Source of the DNA: Mesostigma viride
Taxonomy: Eukaryota; Streptophyta; Mesostigmatophyceae; Mesostigmatales; Mesostigmataceae
DNA length: 64,000 nucleotides
Direction of reading: 5' to 3'
NCBI GenBank assembly: GCA_009746045.1
Contig: RPFO01000814.1
Coordinates: 1-64,000, forward strand
Below the pieces are notes generated by a model. It saw only the letters and a program-made list of their open reading frames with translations. It was not told where the DNA came from and made no database searches. Of this stretch, positions 11,062 to 46,786 are shown one piece after another (within the stretch, counting starts at the first letter, position 1; each line of letters starts with the position of its first letter). Position numbers and translations under genes: made by a program.

Positions 11062-11677
11062 AGTTAACGTAAAGGATTTACGTTAGATGGATAGAGATTG
11101 TTACGCTCTTTCCAACGGCACCTTGAACGCCTCATTTGGTTAAGGAACGTAAAAGTTATGACGTTTCCTAGGCTGTGCCGACAGTACCCGGCGCGCCACT
11201 GTGGGCGCGTACGGACACAGGATGTACAAGTGTCACTTTGATAGTCCGCAGGACGTTGACAGGACTTGTACAGGACTTGATGGTCAATTGATAGGTAGGG
11301 GCGCTGTAGCGCGCCAGGACCTATGAGACAATTGATGCTGAGCAGTGTACGGATAGGTCCACAGGACTAGCCGTATGGACAATTGATAGATCTGCGCGCC
11401 AAAGGCGTGCCAGAGTCTGTGTAATCAATTGATTGACAGTTCAGCTGTGACAGTGCAGCTGAATACTTGGACGCGTCCCTAACAACCTATATGTGTGACT
11501 TGGTCGCACCGGGACGCTAGTTCTTGCGTGCACGTTCTCTTGGCACTGCGACCCTGTCGCCTGTGCTGCGTGCAGTCTTGGAAGTGACGTGACTTACGTC
11601 TGTGTTCCTTATTCTTAATAAAGGCAACTTCCTGCAAGAACCATGGCGGAATTCAGGGCATTCACTCTCATACAACT
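11062..11677 (+). repeat. 5' LTR of element A
   Basis: It starts AGTTAACG and ends TACAACT, so the termini are AGTT/AACT rather than TG/CA. AATAAA at 11617-11622 is about 55 bases before the end and is a likely polyadenylation signal. The 3' LTR copy is 18252-18868. Confidence 0.93.
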
Positions 11678-11692
11678 CGTATTACACGCCTC
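11678..11692 (+). other. Candidate primer-binding region of element A
   Basis: The first bases after the 5' LTR are CGTATTACACGCC. Element B starts its internal region with CGTATTA as well (30805 downward, minus). The shared 7-mer at the primer-site position suggests priming by an internal part of a tRNA rather than its CCA end. The tRNA was not identified. Confidence 0.45.
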
Positions 11693-11701
11693 GTTCCAAA
11701 C

Positions 11702-12547
11702 ATGCCAAATTCTGAAGAATTCCGAATTCCCGGTGATGAGGAGGTAGCCGCTCCGCCGGCTGATCCTTACCAAGACCGGCTGCGCCATCGTGGCAACAAT
11801 TGCTTGACGAGGTCACGATATCGCTGGACGAACTTCATCGTCGGCAGCGCGCAGCTCTCCCATTGCTCGGGGATTTCCCCGAGGACCCCGTTTGCCGCAG
11901 CTGGTGCCGGCTATACGCGCGCCGTTGGACCAAATTCGCAACATTTGTCGCAATTTACGGTCCAGGTGCGTGGCGGTTTGCGGTCGGTGACCGAAGTCAC
12001 CACTGCTATCGAGGAGCTGGACAACGCCATCTCTTCGCTGACCGGCTACCAGAGAAATTTACAAAACTGGGCATCGTACGCACGGGGGGCGCGCCGGTGG
12101 TCTCGACAAACTTATTTCAAGACCTCGCATTGCTGTCGCTGCTCACACGCGGCGTACGCAGTCGCGAACGCCAGGTTCTCATTAACCTGGTGGCTTTTCT
12201 CGCAGCTTTGCGAGAGTGGATTCCCGCAGGTGGGAATTGTGTCATTTTTACTCATCCTCTGCGCCTCGTCGCGCGTCGGCGATCGCAACTTTCGCGCCGG
12301 GGAGCACACCGGTTTTGATACATACCGGCGCAGGTCCGGCACACACGCCGGATATGGAGGATCCAGTTCACCTATGAGTACTGTGATTTCCGGGGCCTCG
12401 ACTACTGAATCGGCCCGTTTTCCAGTACGTCGACATTTTGTCGATTTTTCAGCGGCGATTCGCGGGGGCGGCGGCGACACCGGCGCAGGCGGCAGTTGCG
12501 ACAATTTTGTACATACTTTATTCTGCTGCTTTGCTGAGGTGTTTTGA
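11702..12547 (+). CDS. Leader ORF of element A, unknown function, probably frameshifted
   Basis: 281 aa as read, starting MPNSEEFRIPG only 24 bases after the 5' LTR. Protein-like segments alternate between this frame and the one opened at 11800 (for example LLDEVTISLDELHRRQRAAL and TEVTTAIEELDNAISSL, both helical). That suggests a single longer protein broken by one-base shifts. No domain was recognised. Element B has an ORF in exactly the same place, so a leader protein upstream of gag looks like a family trait. It could be an N-terminal gag region or an accessory protein. Confidence 0.4.
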   Translation: MPNSEEFRIPGDEEVAAPPADPYQDRLRHRGNNCLTRSRYRWTNFIVGSAQLSHCSGISPRTPFAAAGAGYTRAVGPNSQHLSQFTVQVRGGLRSVTEVTTAIEELDNAISSLTGYQRNLQNWASYARGARRWSRQTYFKTSHCCRCSHAAYAVANARFSLTWWLFSQLCESGFPQVGIVSFLLILCASSRVGDRNFRAGEHTGFDTYRRRSGTHAGYGGSSSPMSTVISGASTTESARFPVRRHFVDFSAAIRGGGGDTGAGGSCDNFVHTLFCCFAEVF

Positions 12548-12564
12548 ATAGCTTGTAGTGCAGA

Positions 12565-13047
12565 ATGGCAGACGGGCGCCGTAGCAAAGGTGCCCCAGCC
12601 AGTGGGAATAATGGTGGTGCTGGTAGTGGGACAGCTCACGTAGATGACGTGGGTGTCACCGGGGAAATTACCAATGTTCATCACAACCCTAATAATACAC
12701 AAGCTGTTCTTGGTTATGATCTCACTACCCAGGGTTTGCTTATTGTGAATCAACTGCAACCTGTCACGTCAGACACAAAGCCCAAGCAGGCTGAGGAGTT
12801 TGTGGAGGGGCTAGAGGGGTTTCCAAGTTTGTACGGTGGTACAAACTATTACCAGATCTGGATAGGTAGCCAGACTTTTGGCAAGTGTACAGATCAGATA
12901 AAGGACCTCACTAGAGAGTGTAAGAAGGCCAACAAGGCCTGGTCCAGCTACGTGGCAGAGTTAAAGGAGCTGCTAGAGGATCAGAGGAAGAAAGTGGGGA
13001 TCCATTGGCAGGATAAATACCAGGGGTGGGAGGTCAAGGGGACCTGA
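12565..13047 (+). CDS. gag: Element A gag, N-terminal part
   Basis: 160 aa beginning MADGRRSKGAPASGNN, low-complexity at first, then a helical segment with KDLTRECKKANKAWSSYVAEL. The ORF ends at a stop produced by a frameshift near 13035. The next frame continues with a protein-like stretch (LIQNFLNYCKMVEEG), which a second shift near 13178 connects to the zinc-knuckle part at 13184-13681. Gag would form the particle. Assignment rests on position and on the downstream knuckle. Confidence 0.65.
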   Translation: MADGRRSKGAPASGNNGGAGSGTAHVDDVGVTGEITNVHHNPNNTQAVLGYDLTTQGLLIVNQLQPVTSDTKPKQAEEFVEGLEGFPSLYGGTNYYQIWIGSQTFGKCTDQIKDLTRECKKANKAWSSYVAELKELLEDQRKKVGIHWQDKYQGWEVKGT

Positions 13048-13183
13048 TCCAGAACTTCCTTAACTATTGTAAAATGGTTGAGGAGGGCAGGGCTCACGGC
13101 TTTAATGTTGCTGACAACATAGCCCTGACAAACTGGCTCAAGGTTTCTGGGCTGGACAAGGCTACACGTGGCTCTTAAAGGTC

Positions 13184-13681
13184 ATGTGTGCCCCACACTC
13201 AACCCTCAAGGCCTACAAGGTCATAATCAAACAAGCACTCGAGGCAGAGGAGCTGTTTGAGGGTGGAGTGCCAGCAGTGAAGGCTACCCAGGCAGGTGGG
13301 CGTACCCAGGGTGGCTCCAAATCGTCTGAGGCTGACCGAAGCCAAGGAGGGCGTAGGGGCAACCACAACAAGCGGAAGGCCAATCATTCACCCGACCCTG
13401 ACGGGAGGTCACACTCCAAGTCGGTGTTCAGGCGGGTGGGTGGTCAGCCCAAGCAGGGCAACGCGTCTGACAACGGGGGCAGTGGCCAGGGCAAGTCAAA
13501 GATACAATGCTACCTGTGCAAGGGGTGGGGGCACATCAAGAAGGAGTGTCCCAGCTTCAAGAAGACCCAGGGCCAGGGCAGCAACAAGAATAACAACAAC
13601 AACAAGAAGAAGAACAACAACAAGTCCCAGGCAGGCCAGCCTTCAAAGGGCAGTCAGCAAGAAGACAACAAGGAGCAGTGA
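13184..13681 (+). CDS. gag: Element A gag, C-terminal part with zinc knuckle
   Basis: 165 aa, rich in Gly, Gln, Asn and Lys. The CCHC knuckle CYLCKGWGHIKKEC is followed by an Asn/Lys tract and ends in GAG CAG then TGA CTG. The N-terminal portion belongs to the broken ORF at 12565-13047. The stop is UGA followed by CUG. Pol would follow after a further shift at a G7 run near 13720, so gag-stop-pol readthrough as in element B is plausible. Confidence 0.75.
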   Translation: MCAPHSTLKAYKVIIKQALEAEELFEGGVPAVKATQAGGRTQGGSKSSEADRSQGGRRGNHNKRKANHSPDPDGRSHSKSVFRRVGGQPKQGNASDNGGSGQGKSKIQCYLCKGWGHIKKECPSFKKTQGQGSNKNNNNNKKKNNNKSQAGQPSKGSQQEDNKEQ

Positions 13682-13682
13682 C

Positions 13683-16600
13683 TGTCTGAGGCAACCCCTA
13701 CACACCTTAATTCACCCAGGGGGGGCCAGGTGCTCCAATGCAGATTTTATATCTGGGCAACAAGAGGGTGATCTCCAGGTTCAGGGTGGCCCCAGGTCAC
13801 CTGGAGAGGTACAGGTTCCTATGAAGACGTCCTTGACAGCTGATGCAGCTGTAAGAATGTCTGACCCCATGCATCCTCGTGCTGGGCACGAGGGTGGACC
13901 TCTCATTTTGAGAGAAACCAATGTACAACCACAGAGGGGTGTGAAGGCCTCTGGTGGTATGCATGTGGTCCCTGCTGGCGGTCCAGGTGTTGGGCATGAG
14001 CAGGGTGACTCAGGCTCTGAGTCAGAACAGGATGGAAGTCAGCATGGTGATGCTGGACAACCTGACAGCACAGTCCTGACTGTGCCAGGGACTGCTTCCT
14101 CTGTGTACCAGGAGTTGGGTGCCCGAATCCACAACATGTTTGGGCATGCCACTTCTCTGTCAAACAACTTTGCCTTCCGTATGGGCAGGGCACCCCTTCT
14201 CAAGGCGTGTCAGCAAGCTGCCTCACGGTGTAAGTGCCAGTTGTCCTCCAACAAGCCCAGGAAATCACATGCCAAAGCTCTACCTCAGAGCATTGGTGAT
14301 CTGCAGTGTGATATCCAACACATCAGGGGCATGCAACTGTTGGTGTGCGTGGACAGGTACACAAAATACAAGGTGCTGGAGCATTTACCTTCTATGAAGA
14401 ACAGGTACTTGCTGGCTGCCCTGCAGAATGTAAGAGCCAAGTTTCCTACCACAAGGATCCAGGTGGACATGCAGTTTCAGCATCTCAAGGGTGATCCTAC
14501 CCTTCCTGAGTTGCTGGTTACACCTAGGGAGGCTCATGGGCAGCAGGGTGCTATCGAGAGGGCAATCCAGGAGGTCAAGAAATTGATCATCTCTGAAGAC
14601 TGGGTACCCTTGTCTGCACCTGCACTTGTCAGGAGTGCATGGCTGAGGAACGTGGAGCAGCAGCTGAACAGCAGGGTTAACTTCTACTATGATGGAGTTG
14701 CTGTCAGCCCAATGGGTCTATATCATGGCCTGTGCCCACCACATGTGCTGGAGGGCTGGAAACATGCTGCACATGTCACCTTTGCCAAGCTGAGGGAGAA
14801 GGACCGGGGTTGGAAGATGCTGGAGCCACAAGTGGGTCAGAAGGTCCTAGCTTGGAAGGAACCTAGCCTTTATGGCAAACGTGGTAGCTGGAGTCCTGGG
14901 GTGGTTACCCAGGTTGATGAAGCTAGCCACGCATGCTTGGTCAGCATGGAGGACGAACCAAAGCATGTGCACCGGCTGAGTTGGTCATATGTCAAGCCTA
15001 ACCTGATGAATGAGGGCAGTCAGGCACAAGGCTCACAGGATCTGCAGGATTTTCAGGTCCCAAGTGACATCACTGACGCAACGACCACATCTGTTGCAGG
15101 GGAATCTGTCAGCCCTGGCCAGGTTGCAGAGGTACTTGTTGAACAGGCTGCAAGGTCAACAGCTGGGGAGTCAACTGTCAAGCCCAAGGCACTAACCAAG
15201 CCCAGGGGGACAAGTTTGGCTGGATTGATTGGGGCTCTACAAAGAGCCAAGAAGCAGCCCAAGGTAGCCAAGCTCAGGTGGCATGGCAATCTGGGGCTGG
15301 ACACTGCCTTAGAGGTAGACACTAATTCTCAGGTTTCCATCATTGGGACCAGGGCTGCAGCAGGGTACAGCATGACTGAACCCAGCTATCAGTTTGTGTC
15401 TGACTTCAGTGGCGGGGTACACGTGAAGGTACTGGGTGAGGTATCTATTCCTATCCTTGGACAGGACACTGCATTTTGTGTCTTGGAGGGCTATCAGGGA
15501 CCTGCTCTTCTGGGGCAGAATTTCCTATGCCAGGATGGGGTAGTGATCACGTCCTCTCTCCTGACTAAGGAAGGGGCTGGTCAGGTCCCACTGATTAATT
15601 TCAGGACCACTCACCTATCACGTGCAGTAACCAGGACGGTTAAGCGTGTGCAAGTGTGCCAGGGGCAGGAGCCCTTGGTTGATGACCTCATATTGCCAGC
15701 TGCTAGTCATCCAAGCAGTTTGGGCATTGGTCCTCACTCACTTGCTGGACACAGCCCTATCAACTACCAAGGCCTGGTGAAGCTCATGTCCTCTCCCATT
15801 ATGTGTCCCCAGGTCACACTGGGTCTGATTAAATCTGGGGAGGACTGGATCTCCAAGAAATGCGTGGAACCTGTCAATGACCTGCCTCCTGCACGACGTC
15901 TACTCAAGCTCAAGTTTGTCATCAAGATGAAGGAGGTGGACGGGGTCAAGGTACCACATGTCAGGCCAGTGCTGAATGAGTTCAAGGGTACTGGTGAGTG
16001 CACTGCTGAGGAGTTGTATACCCCTGGCATGTTGCATGACACTTGGAGGCTGCTGCTGTGTGTATTTCTAGGCCTTCTCAACAAGGGCTTGGACTATGGC
16101 TCAGTGGTGGTAGACTTCAAGAGGGCATTTCTGGAGGGGGATGCAGATGTGGCACAGGAAAAGTGGGAGGGCAAGACGCCTTTCTATGTCAGGGTGCCTG
16201 CTGTATGGAAAAGGGACATTCACACTGAGTTCCTTAAAATCCTCAAGGGCCTGGAGGGCCTGAGGTCAAGTCCAATAATCTGGAGGGAGACTCTCAACCG
16301 TTTCCTGAAGGAGCATTGCAACTTGAAGGTCTCTCCTGTAGACCCCTGTCTGTTTCTGGGGCAATGGGAAGGCCTACCAGTGTATGCTTCGCTGCACGGG
16401 GATGACCTACATCTGATAGCTCCCACGTCGTGGCTTAAGGAGCTGATCTCCATCATTAAGTCCAAGTTTCCTCTGGGTAGGGAGCAATGGCAGGTGGAGA
16501 ATGAGCCTCTGCTGTTTGTGGGCATGGAGGCCACACTGGTGAAGAAGGGGGGGAGTGGCGTATGCTGCTGGTGGGGGGCAATGATTATCAAGAGACCCTC

Positions 16601-16703
16601 ATTAGCAAGCTTCCTCCAACCATCACACAGGCACTGTGTCCTATGGTCAGGGGCATGGTTGCTTGGGTGGCAGGCATTTCCAGGCCAGACCTTATGGTCA
16701 TAG
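13683..16703 (+). CDS. pol: Element A pol: integrase, retropepsin-like domain, RT (frameshifted before RNase H)
   Basis: The frame is open from about 13683. The integrase has HNMFGH, then a C-x-C pair, the first catalytic Asp in CDIQHIRG (about 14310), the second in VDMQF (about 14463) and Glu in AIERA (about 14553), giving D-x29-E rather than the usual 35 spacing. A retropepsin-like motif VDTNSQVSII (about 15318) with partner PALLGQNFL follows the integrase. The RT then has VVDFKRAFLEGD (about 16113) and ASLHGDDLHLI (about 16396), where HGDD replaces YxDD. A G7 run near 16550 breaks the frame; RNase H continues in 16562-17302. The protease lying between integrase and RT is not the textbook copia order. 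Confidence 0.85.
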   Translation, partial: CLRQPLHTLIHPGGARCSNADFISGQQEGDLQVQGGPRSPGEVQVPMKTSLTADAAVRMSDPMHPRAGHEGGPLILRETNVQPQRGVKASGGMHVVPAGGPGVGHEQGDSGSESEQDGSQHGDAGQPDSTVLTVPGTASSVYQELGARIHNMFGHATSLSNNFAFRMGRAPLLKACQQAASRCKCQLSSNKPRKSHAKALPQSIGDLQCDIQHIRGMQLLVCVDRYTKYKVLEHLPSMKNRYLLAALQNVRAKFPTTRIQVDMQFQHLKGDPTLPELLVTPREAHGQQGAIERAIQEVKKLIISEDWVPLSAPALVRSAWLRNVEQQLNSRVNFYYDGVAVSPMGLYHGLCPPHVLEGWKHAAHVTFAKLREKDRGWKMLEPQVGQKVLAWKEPSLYGKRGSWSPGVVTQVDEASHACLVSMEDEPKHVHRLSWSYVKPNLMNEGSQAQGSQDLQDFQVPSDITDATTTSVAGESVSPGQVAEVLVEQAARSTAGESTVKPKALTKPRGTSLAGLIGALQRAKKQPKVAKLRWHGNLGLDTALEVDTNSQVSIIGTRAAAGYSMTEPSYQFVSDFSGGVHVKVLGEVSIPILGQDTAFCVLEGYQGPALLGQNFLCQDGVVITSSLLTKEGAGQVPLINFRTTHLSRAVTRTVKRVQVCQGQEPLVDDLILPAASHPSSLGIGPHSLAGHSPINYQGLVKLMSSPIMCPQVTLGLIKSGEDWISKKCVEPVNDLPPARRLLKLKFVIKMKEVDGVKVPHVRPVLNEFKGTGECTAEELYTPGMLHDTWRLLLCVFLGLLNKGLDYGSVVVDFKRAFLEGDADVAQEKWEGKTPFYVRVPAVWKRDIHTEFLKILKGLEGLRSSPIIWRETLNRFLKEHCNLKVSPVDPCLFLGQWEGLPVYASLHGDDLHLIAPTSWLKELISIIKSKFPLGREQWQVENEPLLFVGMEATLVKKGGSGVCCWWGAMIIKRPSLASFLQPSHRHCVLWSGAWLLGWQAFPGQTLWS

Positions 16704-17302
16704 CCAGGTTGCCTGATGACATGCTGGTGGAGCTAGGGTCTGCCAAGGTGGCTGATCAGGTCAGGGCTTCATCTGGCATTCTGTTGTCTGCAGTGGATTT
16801 ATCACAACCCATTTGCATGGAGCTGTATGTGGATAGCTCAATGGACAGCAGGCAGGTCTCCAAGGTCAGGGGCAGGGCTGCAGGGCTCTTTGTGCTCAGA
16901 CAGGAAGGCCTGGGGAGTTTGGTGAGCTGGTTTAGTCGCCTGCACAAACGGGTGGCTGTCAGCAGTGATGTGGCAGAATGCAGGGCTATTTGTGAAGGCA
17001 TTCACACAAGCCTTTATCTGAAGGAGTTGCTTCATCAGATGACTTCTAACACTCCTTGGCCACTTCAGGTTACCACTCTTCTAAAAACAGACTCCATGGG
17101 GATGGTGCAGTTTGTGCACAGGCAGATGGCCAGAAGTAGGGACTTGGATTATCTCCTTCTAAAGTTGTCCTCCTTGGCCAATATTGAGCATATCCCTGGG
17201 GTTGACAATCCTGCTGATGCTTTGACCAAGCTAGTGCAGAAGGCAGCAGTGCAATACAAGGTTCTTCAGTCTCTGATGGACCCATCTCAGCAAGCTGTCT
17301 AA
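16562..17302 (+). CDS. pol: Element A pol C-terminus: RNase H
   Basis: 246 aa as read. The native part begins near 16560 and continues the RT connection domain (GISRPDLMVIARLPDD). RNase H motifs are LYVDSSMDSR (first Asp), DVAECRAICEG (Glu), LKTDSMGMVQF (Asp) and HIPGVDNPADALTKL (final Asp region), typical of copia C-termini. It is in a different frame from 13683-16703 because of the G run near 16550. It degrades template RNA during cDNA synthesis. Confidence 0.85.
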   Translation: MLLVGGNDYQETLISKLPPTITQALCPMVRGMVAWVAGISRPDLMVIARLPDDMLVELGSAKVADQVRASSGILLSAVDLSQPICMELYVDSSMDSRQVSKVRGRAAGLFVLRQEGLGSLVSWFSRLHKRVAVSSDVAECRAICEGIHTSLYLKELLHQMTSNTPWPLQVTTLLKTDSMGMVQFVHRQMARSRDLDYLLLKLSSLANIEHIPGVDNPADALTKLVQKAAVQYKVLQSLMDPSQQAV

Positions 17303-18251
17303 GCTGGTGCCTGGTTATAGGGCATTGGAGAGCAGATTGTGTGGTAGTGTCAGCATTGTGACTGGCATAATACCTGTATTTTAGTCTGTACTAAGGCTCA
17401 TGGACCATGGTACACTCACTCTGATTTTAATCAGGATACAGCCAGGTTTTGGCTGGGGTTCATGCTGTTGACTACACAAGGTTGACAGGTCCATTACAGA
17501 CCATGTATTCTATTTTAAAAGAAATGTATATTTGTACATACTCTCACAATGGTCTGGGAACCTTTATTCTGGGGTTTATAGGGCGGGGTTCGATTCCCTG
17601 GTATTATGTTTCTACAAGCTGGCCTGTTCAGGTGTTTGCCTGTTCAGACTTCCCTAGTTCCCCAGGGCAGGATTTAATTGTTGCCTATGTGTTTCATTTT
17701 GTCATTTGTTTGCTGTGGCAGTTTACCATCTGGCAAGTAGACGGGCGCCGTAAGACGGGCGCCAATAGACCCCTGTTGAGAGAATGACAGGCAAACTATT
17801 GTAATACGCCTTACTTTGTCAAGTGGTATTTTAATTGTCATGGATTTATTGTACTTATATTGAATATGTACTGGGTTTTATGGGATTAGTATCTGGGATT
17901 AATGTAACTCACCGCCAGAAGGTCATTGTACTGGAGGCTCTACCGAGGTGATGGGATTAATTCCTGGAGAAGACCTCATAGAATTAACCTGTATGTATTT
18001 AATTTTGTGTGCTTCTAATATCTGGTGGTACTCTGTAATGCCACTTCCATAGGTTTTTATCCATTTCTCATGGAATGGTTTTCCCTGTGGCAGATCTGTT
18101 TCTTTTCCAGTTCCTTAAAAGAAAAGGCTGGGGGAATGGCAATGGCCATTAAAGACATCTGTTCAAGCTTCAAGCTGGAGTGAAGGACATTTCAAGCTAC
18201 TTCAAGGGTCCCTGGCAGGGGATGTGATCCCTAAAGAAAAGAAGGGATTGG
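17303..18251 (+). other. 3' noncoding region and polypurine tract of element A
   Basis: There is no ORF with domain content. Two copies of GGGCGCC (17743-17749 and 17757-17763) stand out. The polypurine tract is 18233-18251 (AAAGAAAAGAAGGGATTGG), ending directly at the AGTT of the 3' LTR, where plus-strand synthesis would start. Confidence 0.75.
17740..17763 (+). repeat. Paired GGGCGCC motif in the element A 3' region
   Basis: AGACGGGCGCCGTA (17740-17753) also occurs at the gag start (12570-12583). A second GGGCGCC follows 14 bases after the first. Element B has the same pair in its 3' noncoding region. The GGCGCC core is self-complementary. Confidence 0.6.
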
Positions 18252-18868
18252 AGTTAACGTAAAGGATTTACGTTAGATGGATAGAGATTGTTACGCTCTT
18301 TCCAACGGCACCTTGAACGCCTCATTTGGTTAAGGAACGTAAAAGTTATGACGTTTCCTAGGCTGTGCCGACAGTACCCGGCGCGCCACTGTGGGCGCGT
18401 ACGGACACAGGATGTACAAGTGTCACTTTGATAGTCCGCAGGACGTTGACAGGACTTGTACAGGACTTGATGGTCAATTGATAGGTAGGGGCGCTGTAGC
18501 GCGCCAGGACCTATGAGACAATTGATGCTGAGCAGTGTACGGATAGGTCCACAGGACTAGCCGTATGGACAATTGATAGATCTGCGCGCCAAAGGCGTGC
18601 CAGAGTCTGTGTAATCAATTGATTGACAGTTCAGCTGTGACAGTGCAGCTGAATACTTGGACGCGTCCCTAACAACCTATATGTGTGACTTGGTCGCACC
18701 GGGACGCTAGTTCTTGCGTGCACGTTCTCTTGGCACTGCGACCCTGTCGCCTGTGCTGCGTGCAGTCTTGGAAGTGACGTGACTTACGTCTGTGTTCTTT
18801 ATTCTTAATAAAGGCAACATTCCTGCAAGAACCATGGTGGAATTCAGGGCATTCACTCTCATACAACT
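18252..18868 (+). repeat. 3' LTR of element A
   Basis: 617 bp, starts AGTTAACG and ends ACAACT. It differs from the 5' copy at about three sites near its end. It is followed by the CCGTC duplication at 18869-18873. Confidence 0.93.
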
Positions 18869-18873
18869 CCGTC

Positions 18874-22080: not shown

Positions 22081-22724
22081 AGTTAGAAAGAGCTCCCAAC
22101 GGGTGTGAGCTCTTGGTCTTTCACAGCGCGTCTTAGCCAATGTTGCAAGGCAGCAACCTTAAATCTGTTCACCAGGCCACGACCACAATGGGCACTTCCA
22201 CGACCAAGGTGGCACCCACGGTTCGTGCTTTCCGAGATAGCTGGTCATCCCCCATGACCAAGCTATATCCTTGCGTTGTTCCTCGTTCCCATCGGCATGA
22301 CGAGGCACGTGCAGGCGTGCAGGCAAATCCACAACGTCCACTGGCATCAGCGCAGAGCCAGGACGTACTGGATTTGCCTAGACTCTGCAACCTAGGAAGC
22401 ACAGGACCTGTCACAAGCCTGCAAGGCCTAGTATCCTTGCAGCCTTGTGCCAGTGCCAGTACCCTACTAGTCACAGGCTGCTGCTCCTCCTGGCCTACGT
22501 GGACCACAGTCACGTGATAGACAGGCTAAGCCTGTGCAGGCACGGCCTGCCACGTGTCCTGTCCACTACACCAGAGGACTGCACCCTAGTCGGCCACGGA
22601 TGGCTAGGACTTCGGGACTTGATATCTTTCTTGTCCCTTGTCTGTTTCAGGCGGTCAGCACGGCGTTGGAAAGGTCTTTCCAAACTGTATCCACTTAGCA
22701 TATTGGTTGCCCAAAATGCTAACT
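22081..22724 (-). repeat. 3' LTR of element B
   Basis: 644 bp, starting AGTTAG and ending CTAACT, so the ends are inverted copies of each other. It is matched by 30806-31453 with several substitutions and short indels. Confidence 0.9.
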
Positions 22725-22849
22725 CCAACCCTTTCTTCTTTTGGAGCTGGACCAGCTTGAAACAAGCCTAACCTTGCTTGTGCTCACTCAGCCACAGACC
22801 GCTTGGTCCCTTGGGATTGATCAGATCTGATAGGGCCCAGGGTCCTGCC

Positions 22850-23055
22850 AGTTACGTTAAATAGTGACGGAACCTTTTGCCGCCTGAGGCAAATCGGTCC
22901 GTAACACTATTTTGCCCGGAATAACCACTTCCGAGCACCCAAGTTAATTCGGCCGAATTAACTTGGGTGCTCGGAAGTGGTTATTCCGGGCAAAATAGTG
23001 TTACGGACCGATTTGCCTCAGGCGGCAAAAGGTTCCGTCACTATTTAACGTAACT
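22850..23055. repeat. Palindromic repeat P1
   Basis: A perfect 2 x 103-bp palindrome centred at 22952/22953 (TTCGG|CCGAA). It begins AGTTACG and ends CGTAACT. Confidence 0.9.
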
Positions 23056-23187
23056 AAAACCTGGCCTCGTGGAGGGGGGACGAAGAGCCCGAGACATCCG
23101 CCTAGGCCGCTGAGCACGCACCACTAAATGCGCCGGAGCTGCCTCAGTGAGGATTCGAACCCTTGACCTCCAAGGTGCACGGGTTTT

Positions 23188-23393
23188 AGTTACGTTAAAT
23201 AGTGACGGAACCTTTTGCCGCCTGAGGCAAATCGGTCCGTAACACTATTTTGCCCGGAATAACCACTTCCGAGCACCCAAGTTAATTCGGCCGAATTAAC
23301 TTGGGTGCTCGGAAGTGGTTATTCCGGGCAAAATAGTGTTACGGACCGATTTGCCTCAGGCGGCAAAAGGTTCCGTCACTATTTAACGTAACT
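23188..23393. repeat. Palindromic repeat P2
   Basis: The same 206-bp palindrome as P1, forming the centre of the composite inverted repeat. Confidence 0.9.
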
Positions 23394-23524
23394 AAAACCC
23401 GTGCACCTTGGAGGTCAGGGGTTCGAATCCTCACTGAGGCAGCTCCGGCGCATTTAGTGGTGCGTGCTCAGCGGCCTAGGCGGATGTCTCGGGCTCTTCG
23501 TCCCCCTCCACGAGGCCAGGTTTT
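23394..23524 (+). repeat. Spacer S' with a tRNA 3'-half-like sequence
   Basis: It contains GGGGTTCGAATCC (a T-arm/B-box match) followed by TCACTGAGGCA, the layout of a tRNA 3' half from T-stem to acceptor strand. The T-stem pairs at four of five positions. No 5' half with D-arm is present, so this is not a working tRNA gene. The reverse complement is at 23056-23187. It could be a captured tRNA fragment or a SINE-like piece. Confidence 0.5.
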
Positions 23525-23730
23525 AGTTACGTTAAATAGTGACGGAACCTTTTGCCGCCTGAGGCAAATCGGTCCGTAACACTATTTTGCCCGGAATAAC
23601 CACTTCCGAGCACCCAAGTTAATTCGGCCGAATTAACTTGGGTGCTCGGAAGTGGTTATTCCGGGCAAAATAGTGTTACGGACCGATTTGCCTCAGGCGG
23701 CAAAAGGTTCCGTCACTATTTAACGTAACT
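23525..23730. repeat. Palindromic repeat P3
   Basis: The third identical 206-bp palindrome. Its AACT end is followed directly by the CTGCC duplication. Confidence 0.9.
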
Positions 23731-23735
23731 CTGCC

Positions 23736-24615
23736 TCCTTTTGGGAAACAACATATACGCCCTTGGACCAGGCTAGGTGTTCTGGCCAGTGAATCAGAGG
23801 TCACCCCAGGTTATCCCCTGACCCCTTGGTCAGCTCCCAACCTTTCCTTGGGAACTTGGTGTTAGATTAAAGTCAAGGCACATTACCTAGTCCAATGGCT
23901 GGGATTAAAGGATGCCAAGAACGTATTATTGTGAGTTCCTGATCTTTCACAGTTATCACAGGCGCCCGTTCTTATGGCGCCCGCCTTGGCCAGCCTTTCC
24001 CTTTTTATGCTCAAAGAGACTCAGGTAGCACCTATACAAATACTGCCTCATTGGGGAGCCCATGTCTTCACTGGGTGTTAAGCCCAGGAATCACTCATGC
24101 CAGGCTGTGGCTCTGCTGGGGAATTGAACCCCACCCCAACCTCCAGGTTTATAGGTGACCTGGAACTTCACAAGAGAAACATTACAACCATGAAACAACA
24201 TGAGAGATGACATGATTATGTTTTATTCAAGCATTATATAACCCAGAATGTGGCTCCCTGGCAACCATGTTCCACATGGTCACACAACCAGGTTCTTTAT
24301 TAGCAACAGGTTGGAAACAAGCACTAGAAAACATATATACAGCAACCTGTAAGAACCAGCATTCGGGTTGCCCTTGCATGGCCTAACTGTTTGAGGCCAA
24401 AGGCGTCGACTTAAGTCCTGGCGACTCTTCTGAACCCCATGGGGAGGGCCAGGCATGATTCTCAGCTGGTAGGAGTGACATTCCACACCAACTCCTGTCC
24501 AGGAGGGTGTACCTAACCCTGAAGGACCGGCTGTCAACCAGTAAGCACCAGTCACCACTTGGTACTTTGGTCAAGCAGCCCACTGGGGCACCCAAGCTGA
24601 AGCAAGGCCTGGTCT
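23736..24615 (-). other. 3' noncoding region of element B
   Basis: No domain-bearing ORF was found. It contains the paired GGGCGCC motif (minus strand, 23961-23982) also found in element A. The rest shows no recognisable feature. Confidence 0.6.
23961..23982 (-). repeat. Paired GGGCGCC motif in the element B 3' region
   Basis: On the minus strand the two copies are separated by ATAAGAAC. Element A has the same pair separated by GTAAGAC. The similarity of both motif and spacing stands out against a diverged noncoding background. Confidence 0.55.
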
Positions 24616-30805: not shown

Positions 30806-31453
30806 AGTTAGAAAGAGCTCCCAACGTATGTGAGCTCAGACTTGGTCTTTCACAGCGCGGCTTAGCCAATGTTGCAAGGCAGCAACCTTAAATCTGTTCA
30901 CCAGGCCACGACCACAATGGGCACTTCCACGACCAAGGTGCACCCACGGTTCGTGCTTTCCGAGATAGCTGGTCATCCCCCATGACCAAGCTATATCCTT
31001 TGCGTTGTTCCTCGTTCCCATCGGCATCACGAGGCACGTGCAGGCGTGCAAGCAAATCCACAACGTCCACTGGCATCAGTGCAGAGCCAGGACGTACTGG
31101 ATTTGCCTAGACTCTGCAACCTAGGAAGTACAGGACCTGTCACAAGCCTGCAAGGTCTAGTATCCTTGCAGCCCTGTGCCAGCTCCAGTACCCTACTAGT
31201 CACAGGCTGCTGCTCCTCCTGGTCTACGTGGACCACAGTCACGTGATAGACAGGCTAAGCCTGTGCAGGCACGGCCTGCCACGTGTCCTGTCCACTATAC
31301 CAGAGGACTGCACCCTAGTCGGCAACGGATGGCTAGGACTTCGAGACTTGATATCTTTCTCGTCCCTTGTCTGTTTCAGGCGGTCAGCACGGCGTTGGAA
31401 AGGTCTTTCCAAACTGTATCCACTTAGCATATTGGTTGCCCAAAATGCTAACT
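30806..31453 (-). repeat. 5' LTR of element B
   Basis: 648 bp with AGTTAG...CTAACT ends, matching 22081-22724 at roughly 97 percent. On its inner side the internal region begins CGTATTATTG on the minus strand, sharing CGTATTA with element A. Confidence 0.9.
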
Positions 31454-36475: not shown

Positions 36476-36479
36476 GGCT

Positions 36480-39067: not shown

Positions 39068-39412
39068 AGTTGAGTAACTCTAGAGCCCTAGGATCTGGCT
39101 CTGAGTTCCCCATGTCCGTCCGCACGCCTTCCGCTAGCGTCCGCTCAGCCGCCGGCTATAATCCGGCGGTCCGATGCGGGCGACCGGTCTAAGGGCGGCG
39201 CCTAGGGCCGGCGCCACCTAGGCCCCAGTCCGGGGCCTTATCCGGGTCAGTACGGACGGCTAGCTTGTCCTACGGTTACGGCTAACCGGATAGGCTTTGC
39301 TGGCTAAGACATAAACCAGTGGTTGGCCAGCTCCGACAGGAGTTCTCTGTGTTCACCTTATCCCAAGCTCAACGTGACCGACCGCCATAGCTCAGCCGGT
39401 CGGGGGCTTTAA
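39068..39412 (+). repeat. 5' LTR of element C
   Basis: 345 bp, starting AGTTGAGTAACTC and ending CTTTAA. The final CT present in the 3' copy is missing here. At 39149-39169 a 7-bp inverted repeat CCGCCGG/CCGGCGG encloses CTATAAT, a hairpin with a TATA-like loop. GGCGCC occurs twice near 39200. Confidence 0.92.
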
Positions 39413-41717
39413 GGCGACGCGGCGCGCCGAATTTTTTCCGCGCCAAAAAATTCGCGGTACCAGCCGTACCGTGAAAAGTGGGTGCACGGTGCGCGCTCCC
39501 CTTGCGGAAGTGGCCATGGCGACTGCGTTTAGGCGAAACTAGCAATGTAAGGCTAGAGAAATGCCAAAAAAATGCTCGAATGTTGAAGACGATGATTTAA
39601 TGATGTTGGTTTGTGGCGGCAAGTAGCTGATTTACAATATCGCTGCTTTATTTTACTGCCATCGGCATGGGGGGTAAACTGCATTTTTTCGTCGCGCGGA
39701 ATAAAATATAATTCGTGATAGCGGCTGTAAATTCGCAGTTTTCGGGGGCTTTTTGACCGCGAAGGATGAATTCGTATCGGTAGCATTGAATTCCAAACCG
39801 AACTGGTGCTTTTTGCTACATTTTCGGCCATTCTCGGTAAGTAATTCTTCAGGCCTCCGCAATGCATGTCGGAACCTTCCAGGGAAGAACGGCCGTTGTT
39901 GCGCGCCTGGGCGAGGGATCTGCGAGGTCAAGGTATAGATTTGTCGCGAATGTTCTGTGCTATCAGTTCTTTCTTCTATTAGCTCATCGTTCGAAGTTTT
40001 TTCCGTTCTTTTTGGGCAGTTTCCGCCAGCTAGCTCGCCGTTGCTTGCCGTGGTGTTGTCGAATACCTGGCAGCTTTAGATTGTTTTCGTTGATGTCGTG
40101 GTCAAGGCCGCTTCAGTCGAAGCCTATTGCTTCTCGGGAAGGTTTCAGGTATTTCATGAAACGTGTTCTGGCAAGGAGGTTGTGCTTATGGAAGCTTCTA
40201 GTTGTGTGAGAGTGACGCACCCTCTCTTCGCAGCGGCATCACAGCGCTCATGCGCTGGAGGCCCGCCAATGGTTTCTTTCCATTTTATCGTGCAGGGGAG
40301 GGTTTAGGGTTTTACTGACGATCATGTTGGAGATATTGCATTTGTGTGACTGCATGTAGATAGCTGCCACCATTGGTTTATTTGAGCTTACCCTTGATAT
40401 GATGATGTGAAAAGACTGCAATGTGCTGAGCCAGGCATGGTTGACATGGTTGACTGCATGCAAGCTTTGTATGCCATGATCTCCTTGGTTCCTTGCCCTC
40501 CATCGTTCCAGTTTGTTGCCCATCTCAGGTAGGGCATTTAAGGAGTCGCTGCAGTGTTGATTAGCTTGGTTGGCATAAACCTTAACACTCTAACCTGGGA
40601 GAAACATAGAAAATGCTGATTAGGCATTTTAGTGCCATCATCATTATTGCTATTCACATGCTTATAACTCTGGCCATGCTCGAGGGACGGTGAAGGGGTA
40701 TGAGGCGTGTGGCCACCCATTTGTATTTCATAACATATTCAGCATGCATTTGATGCATGTTGGATGGCAGCATGCAAAGTGTAATTGTGTTTCCTTGGTA
40801 ACTGAGTGGTCCTTAGCGCCTTGTCAGGTGGTCGTCTAGGAAACCCATCAGTGCGTGCCACAGTGACCCCCGACCTTGAGCATGTGTCGTCATCAGTGAG
40901 CAAGAGTTAGAGGTGCTTTTGGTCATAGATTTGCTGAGTTCTTGGCATGAAGTTTACAAGGTAACCTTGGGTTGAGTATAGTGTATGCTCTCTTGGCATG
41001 TATGGCGCCTAGCGATCGTGTTGCTATGCTTGCGCTGGCAAGGTTGGCCATGCCGAGGGCAGGTGAGGGCAGATGAGGTGCCTAGGCGTTTGCTTATGTT
41101 TTGTGATCGAGTAGGGCATGCTTTCAGGCTCTTTGGATGGAAAACATCGTGCCTAAGTGGCCTTGTACAAAGAAAAACCTTCTTTAGCGGTCGTGAGAGT
41201 GGCATCCGCCAAACGCAATAACTTGAGCTAGGGTTGTCCGATTGACCTCAAACTTGGACCGTGGCTGGGACCACCCGTGCCGAAATTTAATAGTGCTTTT
41301 TGGCTTGATCTGACAAGTTTATGAATTGTTTTATTTTTTTAAGTGAAAAAAAATCGCGTTTTTGGCGCCACGGGCTATTTTTTGAACGGCGGTGTCCTTA
41401 TGCCCCATGTAAGTTGCTGTTTGCGATGTGCCTGGAAGCAACTACGCGGCTTGTGCTTTTTGGGTCAACCTGTTTTGTGGATTGGCTGGGGCATAACCAG
41501 CCCTAGTTAGCGTCTTTTGCTATTTATAGCGCATTATTGGCGTATATATGGGGGTAGTACCCCCAAAAAGTGCATGGACAACTCACTAGAGATGTTATTT
41601 AGTGCCCCCAATCATAACTTAGCATTGTGCAAATGAATTTCAAGTGATATTAGCATATGTCAATTTTAAGGGTTTTGAGGTGCCACATCCCCTTAACTTG
41701 TATTCATAAAAATCCCG
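39413..41717 (+). other. Long leader of element C without a recognised gene
   Basis: The 2.3 kb between LTR and gag holds only short ORFs without domains (for example 39862-40209). A 15-bp palindrome GGGGGTAGTACCCCC lies at 41550-41564, close to a TATTTATAGC sequence. The AT-rich texture differs from the coding part. An old insertion or a genuine long leader are both possible. Confidence 0.5.
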
Positions 41718-44501
41718 ATGGCTTCCGGTACACGGAGCCGCACGGGCGAACACACAGATACGCCAAGTGGCGAGGCCGCAGGGTCCGTCCTGCCACGCTT
41801 TAGTGCGGACGAGGCCACGAGGTTGATGCAAACCCTCGTGGCGCAACCTGAACTGGCCAAGCAGTTCAAGCATTTGATGCTTGCTGCTGACGACGCACTG
41901 AATCGCGGCCCTCTCAAGCAAACGGAGGTGCCCGCTGATCTACCTGCCGACTATACGGCGGACGACGCAGCAGATTTTCTAGCTGCTCTTAAGCGTCTGC
42001 GCGATGGACGCGCAGACAAAGATTCGGAGCTGATTGGCAAGTTCCGTGCAGTATTCTGCAGTACAACCAAGCACCCAAACATTGCCAATCTAGTTCGCAT
42101 TGCGGACGACAACAAACAAACCTGGGAAGTTTTTTACAACGGTCTAGATGCCCACTTGTCGCGGTCTAAGGAAGAGGCCGACGAGCAAGCCTTCAATGAC
42201 TTCGAGGGCTATGCAGTTAATAAGGCAAATTTGCCCGGGGCTGCACGTGATTTCCAGGTCTTCGTGCACAAGCACAAGCTGCTAGATACTCTCAAGCCCA
42301 TTTTCCTGTGCAATCGATTTCTCAAGAAATGCGACCTGTCGTCGGATGTGCATCTGACCATAGCGACGGAACTCAAAAAGAAGAGTGCTGTCAGTTTCGA
42401 CGAGGGCATGCTGTATTTGATCTCATGCTTCAAGAGTGCGCAGTCCAAGCCGGCTGCCTCGGCTGCTCTGCCATCCCTGCGCAAGGTGGATACCGGCGCG
42501 TCTTCTTCTTCAGGCGCAGAGGCTCCAATTACGCGGTCGGAGCTTACGGCCATCCTGAAAAAGGTCGTCGGCCACGGCAACAACGGGGGCCAGCGAGGGC
42601 GCAAGCGCGGGCATGGTGGCGACGCCAAGCAGGGTGATAATCCCCCGGCCAAGCGGCAGCAGGGGGCGTCTACTGACCGCAAGCAACGCTGTGAGCGCTG
42701 CTTCGGACGTCGCCATGTCCGGGATGACTGCCGAGTTCGCCCGGACCTGGAGCTCGAGGACAACCTTTGCCGCAAGTGCCACGACGTTCTGCGTGGTCAC
42801 AGCGTGGAGGCGTGCAAGGCCAAGCGCATCGTCGTCCACGGCACACGCGAGGAGTGGGCAGAGCGACGGGCAGCACGAAAGTCAGGTGAGAGCACGCTCG
42901 ATACCCCTTCTTTTGCTCAATGCGTCACGCTGAACCGGGCCGTCGTAGAGCCTGACGTCGTTCCTAAAAGCAACGTGACTGCATCCTCTGTCTCATTCCG
43001 TGATGTGCTCACGCAATCCGTTGATGCTGCTCTGGCTCTGTCGCGCCAGGATCACGTGCTTCCTGAGCACGGGTCTACAATGCGTGACCTAAGCAATGTG
43101 GTGTCTTCTAGGTCGGGTGTGTACAACGCCGAGCGACCAAGCACTACTGCAGCACCCCAGCTAGATACTGGGGCGGTTGGGCCTATGAGGAATGTTGTGA
43201 CAGTGCAAGAGAATGCTGGGCGGGCAGATGTTCTCGGTACACACCACCCTAGTGTGGATCTTCACATTGGCAAGGTGCTCACACGGGCGGCCTTTCGTGC
43301 AGCCTCTGAAGCTGCCCAGTTAGCCAATGTCACTACCCCAGTAGTCACCCCACCTGTTGAGAATCCTGACAATGCCACTGCACCTCAGGCTGTCACCCTG
43401 AAACTGTTAGCATACCAGATGCACCGTGCATACGGGCATGAGGCCCAAGCCGAGGTAGAGGGGGCACACATGTTGGGGGCACCTTTATACAACGAGCTGA
43501 AGAATGTGCGTGCTCAGTGTCCTGCCTGCATCAAGATCAGGAAGAAGTCGCGTAGGCGGCATGCCAAGACTCCACCCTTGGAGCGAGGGTACCTTGTGGG
43601 GGATGTCATGCACATGGAAGGGGGGGACACCTATTTCATAGTCAAGGATAGGTTCAGCAAGGTCACCTACATTGAGCCGCTGCCCCACATGTTTGAGGCT
43701 GACCTGCACAGGGCTATCAAGATCAGCCTGGCTTTCTTTCATCCCGTAGTGGAGCTCATGCTAGACCAGCAGTTCCGCTGTGTGCAAGGTTTGCCGGGGA
43801 TGGAGGCCGTGGTCATCGTGGGGCGTGAGGATCACGGCAATATGGGCATGATAGATCGCACTGTAAGCTATGTCAAGACTGTGGCAGCCAAGCGACAGGA
43901 TAACCCACATGGCAAATCCTACGCGGTCAAGACGGCGTGGTGCAAGGAGCTCATGCATGTGTGCAACCATAGGCACGTGCTTGATGTCAAGGGCTTTGGG
44001 CTAGTCACGCCTCGGGGGCTGTCAGCGGGCACCTACTCACCCGAGGTAGTAGAGGCATACCAACAGCATCTACAGGATACCGCCGCCAAGCTGCGGCTCA
44101 AGGATGCCACGCTGCCTGATTTGTCTAGCGCTTTTGAGGTCGGGCAGTTGGTCATGTTCCACAAGGAGAGCTCGCCCAGCGGCAAACGGGGCACCATGCA
44201 GGGGCCTGGGGCCATCACAAAGTTAGACTGGCCGCTGCGGGTCATAGACATAGAGTGGAATGATCGGGTGTATAGGGTACCATGGGCATCGGTGGCAGGC
44301 TATAAGCAAGGGGATAGCATGGAGAGTGAGCTGGCAGCCAACAGGGCACTGGGGTGGGTAGTGAAGGATAATGCGCCTGTCGTAGCATCTGAGGTGGTAC
44401 CCCACGGGTCGCTCCCAGGGGCAGACACAGCTACACCCCCCCCTCCCCTGGGCCCCAATATGACCCCGTGGATGGGTGGGATGAGGATGGGGTGGGTTTG
44501 A
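41718..44501 (+). CDS. Element C ORF1: Gag fused to integrase
   Basis: 927 aa, starting MASGTRSRTGEHT. Residues 1-290 are a helical gag region. Two cysteine knuckles follow: CERCFGRRHVRDDC (about 324-337) and CRKCHDVLRGHSVEAC. After a linker of about 200 aa comes an integrase: H-x4-H in HRAYGH, QCPACI (about 600), first Asp in GDVMHMEG (about 628), second in LDQQF (about 679). The position normally held by the catalytic Glu is Asp (MIDRT, about 710), 29 residues after the second Asp. No convincing protease lies between the knuckles and integrase. The frame is intact, so the Gag-integrase fusion is genuine. Confidence 0.85.
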   Translation: MASGTRSRTGEHTDTPSGEAAGSVLPRFSADEATRLMQTLVAQPELAKQFKHLMLAADDALNRGPLKQTEVPADLPADYTADDAADFLAALKRLRDGRADKDSELIGKFRAVFCSTTKHPNIANLVRIADDNKQTWEVFYNGLDAHLSRSKEEADEQAFNDFEGYAVNKANLPGAARDFQVFVHKHKLLDTLKPIFLCNRFLKKCDLSSDVHLTIATELKKKSAVSFDEGMLYLISCFKSAQSKPAASAALPSLRKVDTGASSSSGAEAPITRSELTAILKKVVGHGNNGGQRGRKRGHGGDAKQGDNPPAKRQQGASTDRKQRCERCFGRRHVRDDCRVRPDLELEDNLCRKCHDVLRGHSVEACKAKRIVVHGTREEWAERRAARKSGESTLDTPSFAQCVTLNRAVVEPDVVPKSNVTASSVSFRDVLTQSVDAALALSRQDHVLPEHGSTMRDLSNVVSSRSGVYNAERPSTTAAPQLDTGAVGPMRNVVTVQENAGRADVLGTHHPSVDLHIGKVLTRAAFRAASEAAQLANVTTPVVTPPVENPDNATAPQAVTLKLLAYQMHRAYGHEAQAEVEGAHMLGAPLYNELKNVRAQCPACIKIRKKSRRRHAKTPPLERGYLVGDVMHMEGGDTYFIVKDRFSKVTYIEPLPHMFEADLHRAIKISLAFFHPVVELMLDQQFRCVQGLPGMEAVVIVGREDHGNMGMIDRTVSYVKTVAAKRQDNPHGKSYAVKTAWCKELMHVCNHRHVLDVKGFGLVTPRGLSAGTYSPEVVEAYQQHLQDTAAKLRLKDATLPDLSSAFEVGQLVMFHKESSPSGKRGTMQGPGAITKLDWPLRVIDIEWNDRVYRVPWASVAGYKQGDSMESELAANRALGWVVKDNAPVVASEVVPHGSLPGADTATPPPPLGPNMTPWMGGMRMGWV

Positions 44502-46786
44502 CGGGACCTAGTGCACGTAGTGACTCACCTCCTGTGCTAGCCACGGATAATGTGGGAGGCCCGCCTAGCGTGGCCTCGCCGGAGGGTCAGGGTCCTGCCC
44601 ATGCGCCTCGCCCACCTAGGGACCTGGCTTCAACGGTCACGGCCTTGTGGCGTGCTCAGGCGCTTAAAGCGAAAGCTGCATCAGGGGTGGCTCAGGTCAA
44701 AACTCTCTCACAGGGGGTCAGGCCGGTTAAGTCAGCCTTGTTTCCTACGTGTAGACCGTGGCAGCTGGTGGCTGTGGACACGCAAGCATCCGTGTCTATT
44801 ATCTCTCGTCGGGCAGCCACCCTGTATCCAGTGCTAGAGTCGCCGTACAAATCGGTGACCGACTTTGCAGGCACTTCGGCATATCAAGTTACCGGGATGG
44901 TGGTGCTGCCGGTGTTGGGCATTGACACGCCGTTTCACGTCGTGGATGGCTACGAGGATGTGGCCTTGCTGGGCGAACCTTTCGTATCATACCCGGGGTT
45001 CTCAGTGTCCGCTGACTTGCTGTCAGTCGCGGGGGTGGGCAGCATCCCGCTTCGCGAGTACCACGCTCCATTGGGGGTGGTGGTCGGGCAGCCCGGCGTC
45101 GTGCGGCGCTTACCGATGGCGGCGTTTTCCACACCGCCGCTCGTCCAGTCCATCATTCAGCCTCAGGATTGGCACCCGCGCAGCTTCGGCCTCCACTCAC
45201 ACTCACTGGCGGCGGATAGCCCTGTGACGTGGGAGCAACTTGTCCTGGACTGTCAAGATCCTCTCAAGTTTGCTTTGTGGCGCGACGCGTTCATTCGAGC
45301 CAAGGAGCAGTGGCGAGAGCGCGAGGTCTACCGAGGATTGGAGAGTGTGCCAGCCGGGGCCACGCGGTTGCGGTTGAAGTTCGTGCTCACCTACAAGCCG
45401 GACGAGACCAACTCTTCGGTGGTGTTCCGGGTAAGGCCCGTGGTCACGGAGACGAAGGGGTCCTCCCCGCTGGATGCCAAGGATCTTTATACCCCTGGGC
45501 TCAACCATGTTTCGCATCGGCTACTGACGGTCATCTACTTGGGCAAGCGGAACGCGGGCAAGGACTACGGGATGTGGTGCGGTGACTTTCAGCGGGCATT
45601 CCTCCACAGCGACGCTGGGGTCGCGCAGCAAACATGGCAAGGCACCCGCTACGTGGTGAAGGTCCCGGTGGTCTGGCAGGATGGCACCATTGGCAGCGAG
45701 TATATCGAGCTGTTGACAGGGGTGGAGGGGCTGCAGAGCTCTCCCATCATCTTCCGCATTTCCGCGGAGGAGGTCTTGCAGAGCTTAGGGGCCACGTACC
45801 ATCGCGCGGATCCTAACTTCTTTGTGGTCCCCACCGGCGTCCCTGGCGAGCCAGCCCTCTTCGTGTGGCATGGCGATGACTTCAAGCTGGTGGCACCTCG
45901 CACCTTTGCTACCCAGTTTCTTGCTGCAGTGGCGGCTAAGTTTCCCCTGGGCAGGGCGGTGGATCATGAGGAGGGTAAACCCGTGGTGTTTTGCGGCGTG
46001 CAGTCTACGTTGCAGCGGGATTCGCGTTCTGGCGAATGGGTCATGCACATGCAGGATAGCCGCAACTATGTGGTTGACCTGCTGGCCGACCTCCCGTCCC
46101 CGCTGTTGGCAACCCATGGGCCCTCGGTTAAGGGCAAGCTCGGGTGGTTGGCGGACACGGTGGCACCTGATTTGGCAGTGCTCGCTCGCCTGCCCGATGA
46201 TGTGCTGGAAGGACTAGGGTCCATTCATGTTCGGCGGCAGCTGGCCATGACGCCCGGCATTGTGCTTCGTGGGCTCGATTGCTCACAGCCGGTGCACCTC
46301 GAGATAGTGACGGATGCTAATCTAGAGACGCGCACAGTCAGCCAAGTGCGGGCCCGCATGGGGGCACTGTTCTTTATCAGCAATGAGGGCCAGCCTGGCA
46401 TGTTGTTAGATTGGTACTCGCGCTTGCACAGCCGCATTGCCACTAGCCCCAACACGGCTGAATGCCGGGGCATTGTTTCAGCTATCTCACATGGCATGTG
46501 GCTGCGGTACTTGCTGGGTTGGGTATTTGGCTCGTGTGGGTTCACTCTTCACTGGACTAGCACGGTGCACACTGACTCACAAAGTTGTTTGGCCTTCCTT
46601 GACAATCCCTATGCGCGGTCACAGGACGTTGATTACCTCGTACTCGCTGAGGCGGCCTCCTGCGTCACGCGTCTCCAGCACATCGCGGATGAACTCAATC
46701 CCGCGGATGCACTCACCAAGGAGGCGCGGGAGGCTGCCCCGCAGTACGCAGTGTTGCGCAAGCGCATGACGATGCAACACCCGTGA
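44468..46786 (+). CDS. pol: Element C ORF2: retropepsin-like domain, RT, RNase H
   Basis: 772 aa. Near residue 100 is VAVDTQASVSII with partner VALLGEPFVS about 70 residues on, a retropepsin-like pair. The RT has RLKFVLTYK, WCGDFQRAFLHSD (about 370), LTGVEGLQSSPIIF and VWHGDDFKLVAP (about 466, HGDD). RNase H has EIVTDANLETRTV (about 611), ECRGIVSAI, VHTDSQSCLAFL (about 697) and NPADALTKEA. It overlaps ORF1 by 34 bp in the -1 frame, so it could be made by frameshifting or re-initiation; the ATG at 44468 is inside the overlap. The frame is intact. Confidence 0.9.
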   Translation: MDGWDEDGVGLTGPSARSDSPPVLATDNVGGPPSVASPEGQGPAHAPRPPRDLASTVTALWRAQALKAKAASGVAQVKTLSQGVRPVKSALFPTCRPWQLVAVDTQASVSIISRRAATLYPVLESPYKSVTDFAGTSAYQVTGMVVLPVLGIDTPFHVVDGYEDVALLGEPFVSYPGFSVSADLLSVAGVGSIPLREYHAPLGVVVGQPGVVRRLPMAAFSTPPLVQSIIQPQDWHPRSFGLHSHSLAADSPVTWEQLVLDCQDPLKFALWRDAFIRAKEQWREREVYRGLESVPAGATRLRLKFVLTYKPDETNSSVVFRVRPVVTETKGSSPLDAKDLYTPGLNHVSHRLLTVIYLGKRNAGKDYGMWCGDFQRAFLHSDAGVAQQTWQGTRYVVKVPVVWQDGTIGSEYIELLTGVEGLQSSPIIFRISAEEVLQSLGATYHRADPNFFVVPTGVPGEPALFVWHGDDFKLVAPRTFATQFLAAVAAKFPLGRAVDHEEGKPVVFCGVQSTLQRDSRSGEWVMHMQDSRNYVVDLLADLPSPLLATHGPSVKGKLGWLADTVAPDLAVLARLPDDVLEGLGSIHVRRQLAMTPGIVLRGLDCSQPVHLEIVTDANLETRTVSQVRARMGALFFISNEGQPGMLLDWYSRLHSRIATSPNTAECRGIVSAISHGMWLRYLLGWVFGSCGFTLHWTSTVHTDSQSCLAFLDNPYARSQDVDYLVLAEAASCVTRLQHIADELNPADALTKEAREAAPQYAVLRKRMTMQHP

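Follow-up and report, generated by a model that had tools for sequence, protein, structure and literature searches.

Elements and coding layout

The 64-kb window analysed here, positions 1 to 64,000 of Mesostigma viride contig RPFO01000814.1, contains four elements of one family of long terminal repeat (LTR) retrotransposons (A, B, C and D), together with a copia-type element (E) and one gypsy-type element. In A, B and C the integrase precedes the protease, which is followed by the reverse transcriptase (RT) and RNase H, an order that is real and unusual. The independent database protein P0006 (ENA, from a 6224-base contig; 42% identity to B in the protein search and 46% in the alignment) has, judging by its aligned sequence, the same Pol order. 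The order in A, B and P0006 was read from tblastn comparisons among the elements and an alignment of B, A, P0006 and C; in C the integrase lies in the adjoining upstream open reading frame (ORF), followed by protease, RT and RNase H. An earlier interpretation made from the letters alone, hereafter the sequence-only reading, had placed a retropepsin-like segment between integrase and RT in A, B and C, which tblastn, the alignment and profile hidden Markov models (HMMs) confirm.

In element B (minus strand), a single open frame (24619-28188) covers the integrase (26929-27858; tblastn with the C integrase, E 2.2e-27), the protease (modelled stretch 26269-26706, with DTN at 26602-26610; AlphaFold model and fold matches, and E 9.1e-21 with an HMM built from C and D), the RT (25435-26040; RVT_2, E 1.6e-4) and the RNase H (24634-25362; tblastn of A against B). 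Upstream is a gag frame (28188-29636) with 17% identity to the gag of A (E 1.3e-4), and a zinc knuckle (zf-CCHC, E 5.6e-7) lies in a frame other than that of gag (28192-28503). Element A (plus strand) carries gag in two frames (12559-13044 and 13115-13678, spanning 12559-13678), the second of which contains a zinc knuckle (zf-CCHC, E 0.0013, just below the Pfam cut-off). The reading is open from integrase through RT (13281-16700), comprising the integrase (14115-14993; tblastn with the C integrase, E 1.8e-29; rve, E 0.033), the protease (15225-15671, with DTN at 15318-15326; the HMM from C and D matches 15312-15608 at E 4.4e-22) and the RT (15876-16469; RVT_2, E 6e-6), and the RNase H (16556-17284; tblastn with B) occupies a separate frame (16505-17299).

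In element C (plus strand), a Gag-integrase ORF (P0003, 41718-44501), in which the integrase occupies 43377-44294 and fold matches were obtained for a model of 42795-44498, stops at 44498. Protease, RT and RNase H are uninterrupted in a different frame (44393-46783), with the protease at 44759-45067 (DTQ at 44777-44785; E 1.9e-24 with an HMM from A, B and P0006) and the RT and RNase H at 45320-46768, the latter from about 46037; these were located by tblastn with A and B and by alignment, and have no Pfam match. The claim of the sequence-only reading that frames are uninterrupted over this part in B and C therefore holds for B, but in C the integrase frame differs from that of the downstream domains. 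The database protein P0010 spans this junction (44319-44791) in one reading, one match covering 50 residues at 90% identity and another 118 at 100%; since it matches both C frames, a copy reading across the junction exists. Element D (plus strand) is a fragment (31565-33667) that adjoins the LTR of B, with broken frames for a protease (31625-31933, with DTM), an RT (about 32073-33164) and an RNase H (33161-33667). Its protease precedes its RT, as the sequence-only reading had it, and matches the HMM from A, B and P0006 at E 3.5e-20. Since the window yielded no detectable integrase for D, this element is uninformative on the position of that domain.

From LTR to LTR, A extends over 11062-18869 (LTRs 11062-11678 and 18252-18869, 99.5% identical), B over 22081-31453 (minus strand; LTRs 30806-31453 and 22081-22724, 96.6%) and C over 39068-47508 (LTRs 39068-39412 and 47165-47508, 98.8%). 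The LTR ends of A and B are AGTT...AACT, both starting AGTTA, rather than the TG...CA expected for Ty1/copia, which is not a strict requirement since other ends have been published (PMC3601003, in the excerpts available). The LTRs of C also start AGTT, and AACT is reached by its 3' LTR only, not by its 5' LTR. With the ends taken as AGTT...AACT, A is flanked by a 5-bp target duplication (CCGTC), and C by GTATA provided that its 3' LTR is extended to AACT; comparison of the flanks of B gave no matching duplication, so that 5-bp duplications are present in two of the three elements. The sequence CGTATTA, a candidate primer binding site, directly follows the 5' LTR in A (11679-11685) and B (30799-30805, minus strand), and purine-rich stretches lie just before the 3' LTRs of both. 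Open frames with no detected mutual similarity occur upstream of gag in B (29967-30887, minus strand) and A (11588-12544). Nested perfect palindromes are found within B between the coding part and an LTR (22850-23730), and a TGGA microsatellite of 73.8 copies (47517-47811) lies just beyond the 3' LTR of C.

The post-integrase protease and the integrase

Protease HMMs from the two subgroups recognise each other reciprocally, the model of A, B and P0006 finding C and D and the model of C and D finding A and B at the E-values given above. Among 1327 six-frame segments of at least 30 amino acids, the next matches have E-values of only 1.8 and 4.2. These reciprocal matches, with nothing else below E 1, lead us to reject a chance motif. 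A protease upstream of the integrase, which would speak against the order, was not found: the Gag-integrase stretches searched contain no protease family of Pfam to E 10, and neither the family HMMs nor those of canonical copia proteases match there, although the copia models are weak controls of absence, as those that find element E included E itself and the HMM of P0013 to P0015 found nothing to E 5. The model of the Gag-integrase linker of C, of low confidence, shows no strands.

Two DTGA strings in P0003 were considered as proteases of C and rejected. The one at about residue 483, between Gag and integrase, has its nearest later LG some 30 residues on, against a spacing of 63-64 in the family. 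This string is without a Pfam match, lies within residues 32-199 of the modelled stretch, where the predicted local distance difference test score (pLDDT) is below 50 and there are no strands, and is absent from A, B and P0006. The other, at about residue 258, is in Gag ahead of a cysteine-rich stretch, and the whole of P0003 is without a Pfam match to E 10 or a protease-HMM match.

Structure prediction supports the identification as a retropepsin that the sequence-only reading proposed: the AlphaFold model of the B stretch and its fold matches are retropepsin-like, and the predicted retropepsin and integrase folds both match retroviral counterparts. In the PDB, P0001 and alignment A3 as sequence queries retrieved only 4 and 5 sequences to E 10, apparently unrelated. 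The Asp and Thr of the catalytic D-T/S-G motif are invariant in all five distinct sequences, and a later [IL][IL]G motif stands 63-64 residues past the motif Asp in B, C, D and P0006 in a scripted search, in agreement with retropepsin spacing; in A the script halted at an earlier ILG, and LLGQNF is visible in the alignment. Between A and B, amino-acid identity is 59% in the protease (107 codons) and 60% in the RT (243), compared with 44% in the N-terminal part and core of the integrase (196) and 28% in the integrase-protease linker (74), and protease codon positions 1, 2 and 3 are identical at 0.63, 0.71 and 0.39, respectively. This pattern of amino-acid and codon-position identity would fit purifying selection on the protease. 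For the integrase, fold matches to the model of C (42795-44498) cover an HHCC domain, a D-D-E core and an SH3-like C-terminal domain. Both core Asp residues are invariant in the four rows, the third residue is Glu in A, B and P0006, and these three integrases have CxC in place of CxxC.

Affinities of the family and origin of its Pol order

The RTs of the family are only remotely similar to copia RTs. RVT_2 matches A and B as given above, P0006 at E 0.014 and the database protein P0009 at 6.9e-6, all below the Pfam cut-off, and has no match in C or P0008; RVT_1 has none in A, B or C. With two of these RTs (A and B) under the threshold and that of C unmatched, elements of this kind escape annotation that relies on Pfam cut-offs. 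In tblastn, P0013 to P0016, which are canonical copia proteins, match the family RT-RNase H, the best E-value, computed as are the others for the 64-kb window alone, being 3.2e-13 (P0015 on B). All four aligned rows (B, A, P0006 and C) have HGDD as their RT motif, and YVDD is the usual form in copia. In an RT tree of 15 rows, for which the program gave a long-branch warning (the gypsy row, P0011 and P0012) and the root is not established, the family (seven rows) forms a clade with support of 97/99, apart from seven copia proteins and one gypsy RT. A very long stem (3.38 changes per column) leads to this clade, with no supported nesting in any copia subgroup. A constraint that keeps the seven copia rows together lowers the log-likelihood by 0.23 units and is not rejected (approximately unbiased test, p-AU 0.296), nor is a group uniting P0013 to P0017 and the family (p-AU 0.081). 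The name 'copia-like' used by the sequence-only reading is apt in the sense of a remote relationship only, given the sub-threshold RVT_2 matches of A and B and the lack of one in C.

With Ty1/copia (Pseudoviridae), the family has in common its LTRs and an integrase that precedes RT-RNase H; the latter region is remotely similar, and 5-bp duplications are seen in two of the three elements. It differs in the protease following the integrase in A, B, C and P0006 instead of preceding it, in the DTN, DTQ or DTM motif, in having no match to copia's Pol_BBD model, and in its sub-threshold RT with HGDD. As the canonical copia order was tested for and not found, the elements are not filed as canonical Ty1/copia. 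That order (Pol_BBD, then gag_pre-integrase, rve and RVT_2) is seen in P0016 and P0017. Element E, which the sequence-only reading had offered as its example, has a copia-type protease (Pol_BBD, E 2.2e-14) but no integrase detected before the window end by Pfam or by tblastn with the copia proteins used, and therefore does not show it. Conserved Pol domain order has been related to superfamilies (PMC12440569, in part), and integrase lies ahead of RT and RNase H both in Copia/Ty1 and in rGmr1 of the Metaviridae (excerpts of PMC3601003). The Gmr1 lineage of Ty3/gypsy thus resembles the family in its altered Pol order; unlike it, Gmr1 is a gypsy lineage with a copia-like order (PMC2774666), and the excerpts of that paper and of PMC3601003 describe no post-integrase protease. 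Ty3/gypsy, BEL and retroviruses, with the order protease-RT-RNase H-integrase (PR-RT-RH-IN), are like the family in the protease immediately before RT-RNase H and in predicted retropepsin and integrase folds that match retroviral ones, and unlike it in that the integrase stands behind the PR-RT-RH block and that RVT_1 fails to match A, B or C. The Zam clade of Drosophila errantiviruses, gypsy-related animal elements compared in this one respect, has LTRs that start with AGTTA rather than TG (excerpts of PMC3601003), as do those of A and B.

We consider A, B, C and D to represent a deep, copia-related LTR retrotransposon lineage with Gag upstream and a Pol of integrase-retropepsin-RT-RNase H, with a probability of roughly 0.85. 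Several observations weigh against this. The frames of A, C and D are broken in the window. The models of the protease and of the C linker-integrase, built on 6 and 4 sequences, have mean pLDDT values of only 60.2 and 50.6 overall. Pfam barely detects the protease, the top model, gag-asp_proteas, matching P0006 at E 0.0032 and B at 0.07, below cut-offs (Asp_protease_2 also matches P0006 at 0.17), and none matching A, C or D. The third catalytic residue of the C integrase (43377-44294) is Asp and not Glu. The Gly of the retropepsin motif is missing in all five distinct sequences, which read DTN (A, B and P0006), DTQ (C) or DTM (D), and on this sequence evidence protease activity would not be assured. 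That the order is an artefact of mis-assembly, nested insertion or a chance motif is nevertheless highly improbable: several frames are broken and elements adjoin one another, but P0006 and the LTR elements A, B and C, which fall into two divergent subgroups at about 35% identity, share the order, B reads through all four domains in one frame, and the protease HMMs are reciprocal.

The order could have arisen by a secondary relocation within Ty1/copia, in which the protease of a PR-IN-RT-RH element shifted to between integrase and RT. This is possible, if on the doubtful side; the copia proteins do match the family RT-RNase H and the RT tree does not settle the relation to the seven copia rows, but the long stem, the lack of supported nesting in a copia subgroup and the small cost of holding the copia rows together argue against it. 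The sequence-only reading took the protease to be the part that moved, although a moved integrase explains the order equally well. A PR-RT-RH block of the gypsy, BEL or retroviral kind could have been kept and the integrase placed ahead of it, a one-step permutation of PR-RT-RH-IN that is consistent with the family protease immediately preceding the RT, as in the window gypsy element (protease and RVT_1 in one ORF), and with the weak protease matches to gag-asp_proteas, which also matches the window gypsy protease, and not to Pol_BBD. Such a move appears rather unlikely, given that the tree is without an established root and that profile comparison (hhalign and hmmsearch) with one gypsy protease and seven of copia type gave no resolution of ancestry, the best scores being to other sets and all weak. 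The same Pfam matches would suit the loss of a copia protease and gain of a foreign retropepsin, for example of gypsy type, between integrase and RT; this is unlikely, as they are below cut-offs and the profile comparison did not separate the sources, family HMM scores being 4.4 bits for element E and 4.1 bits for the window gypsy.

Under the preferred reading of a deep copia-related lineage, replication would resemble that of other LTR retrotransposons, the elements most likely functioning in the manner of copia. An LTR-driven transcript would yield Gag and Gag-Pol, and the protease, a putative homodimer, would dimerise within the particle and free the integrase N-terminal to itself and the RT-RNase H C-terminal to it, or else remain joined to RT. 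The complementary DNA would then integrate with 5-bp duplications. Cut sites would lie at Gag/integrase, integrase/protease and protease/RT, compared with Gag/protease, protease/integrase and integrase/RT in copia.

A more speculative and rather unlikely extension is that the family is a deep lineage not described before, sister to every known copia-like element. Its PR-RT-RH block, retained as in gypsy and retroviruses but with integrase in front, would constitute a third basic Pol order (IN-PR-RT-RH), which may be intermediate between the orders PR-RT-RH-IN and PR-IN-RT-RH, and its retropepsin would work without the motif Gly. Pol domain order is one character separating LTR retrotransposon superfamilies, and the family departs from both standard orders. 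Ideas on the rearrangement of Pol can be tested on this concrete case, which may inform how such elements were assembled; deciding among a moved protease, a replaced one and a moved integrase would be of wide interest, and the DTN, DTQ and DTM proteases provide a natural test of the need for the motif Gly.

Related sequences and other features of the window

Database relatives of the family are few. Query P0001 returned one protein, alignment A2 returned six to E 10, and P0006 returned itself and five weak copia-type proteins; these searches are incomplete, as P0006, itself a row of A2, was not returned by the A2 search. Searches of viral contigs and genome contigs for further relatives gave no confirmed locus. 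P0007 and P0008 are labelled eukprot jgi/Mesvir1, which we take to be Mesostigma viride; P0007 matches C at 99.5% over 629 residues, and P0008 matches D over three stretches of 166, 368 and 177 aligned residues (98.2%, 99.2% and 74.6% identity). Two further proteins carry the label Prorocentrum lima: P0009 is 43% identical to C, and P0010 is nearly identical to it. The near-identity of P0010 suggests contamination between public data sets, its probable source, and P0009 is possibly, but not certainly, of dinoflagellate origin. In the open-licence literature searched, no paper listed presents, in its title or at the start of its abstract, a copia-like element with the protease behind the integrase, which is not proof of novelty; a full-text search for order abbreviations (int-pr-rt, gag-int-pr) found none, and a search for a foamy-virus precedent for a motif lacking Gly likewise found no paper.

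Elsewhere in the window, the gypsy-type element (3320-6731, minus strand) encodes a Gag with a zinc knuckle upstream of its protease-RT ORF, and a second RVT_1 RT ORF (E 5.4e-11) lies at 48897-50912 (minus strand). A repeat protein with Big_12 domains (9601-11019) and an ORF with a RING finger (50798-52501) are also on the minus strand. A 170-bp satellite occupies 53976-60447 (38.1 copies, 100% matches), with a second block of 2.2 copies at 60903-61278.
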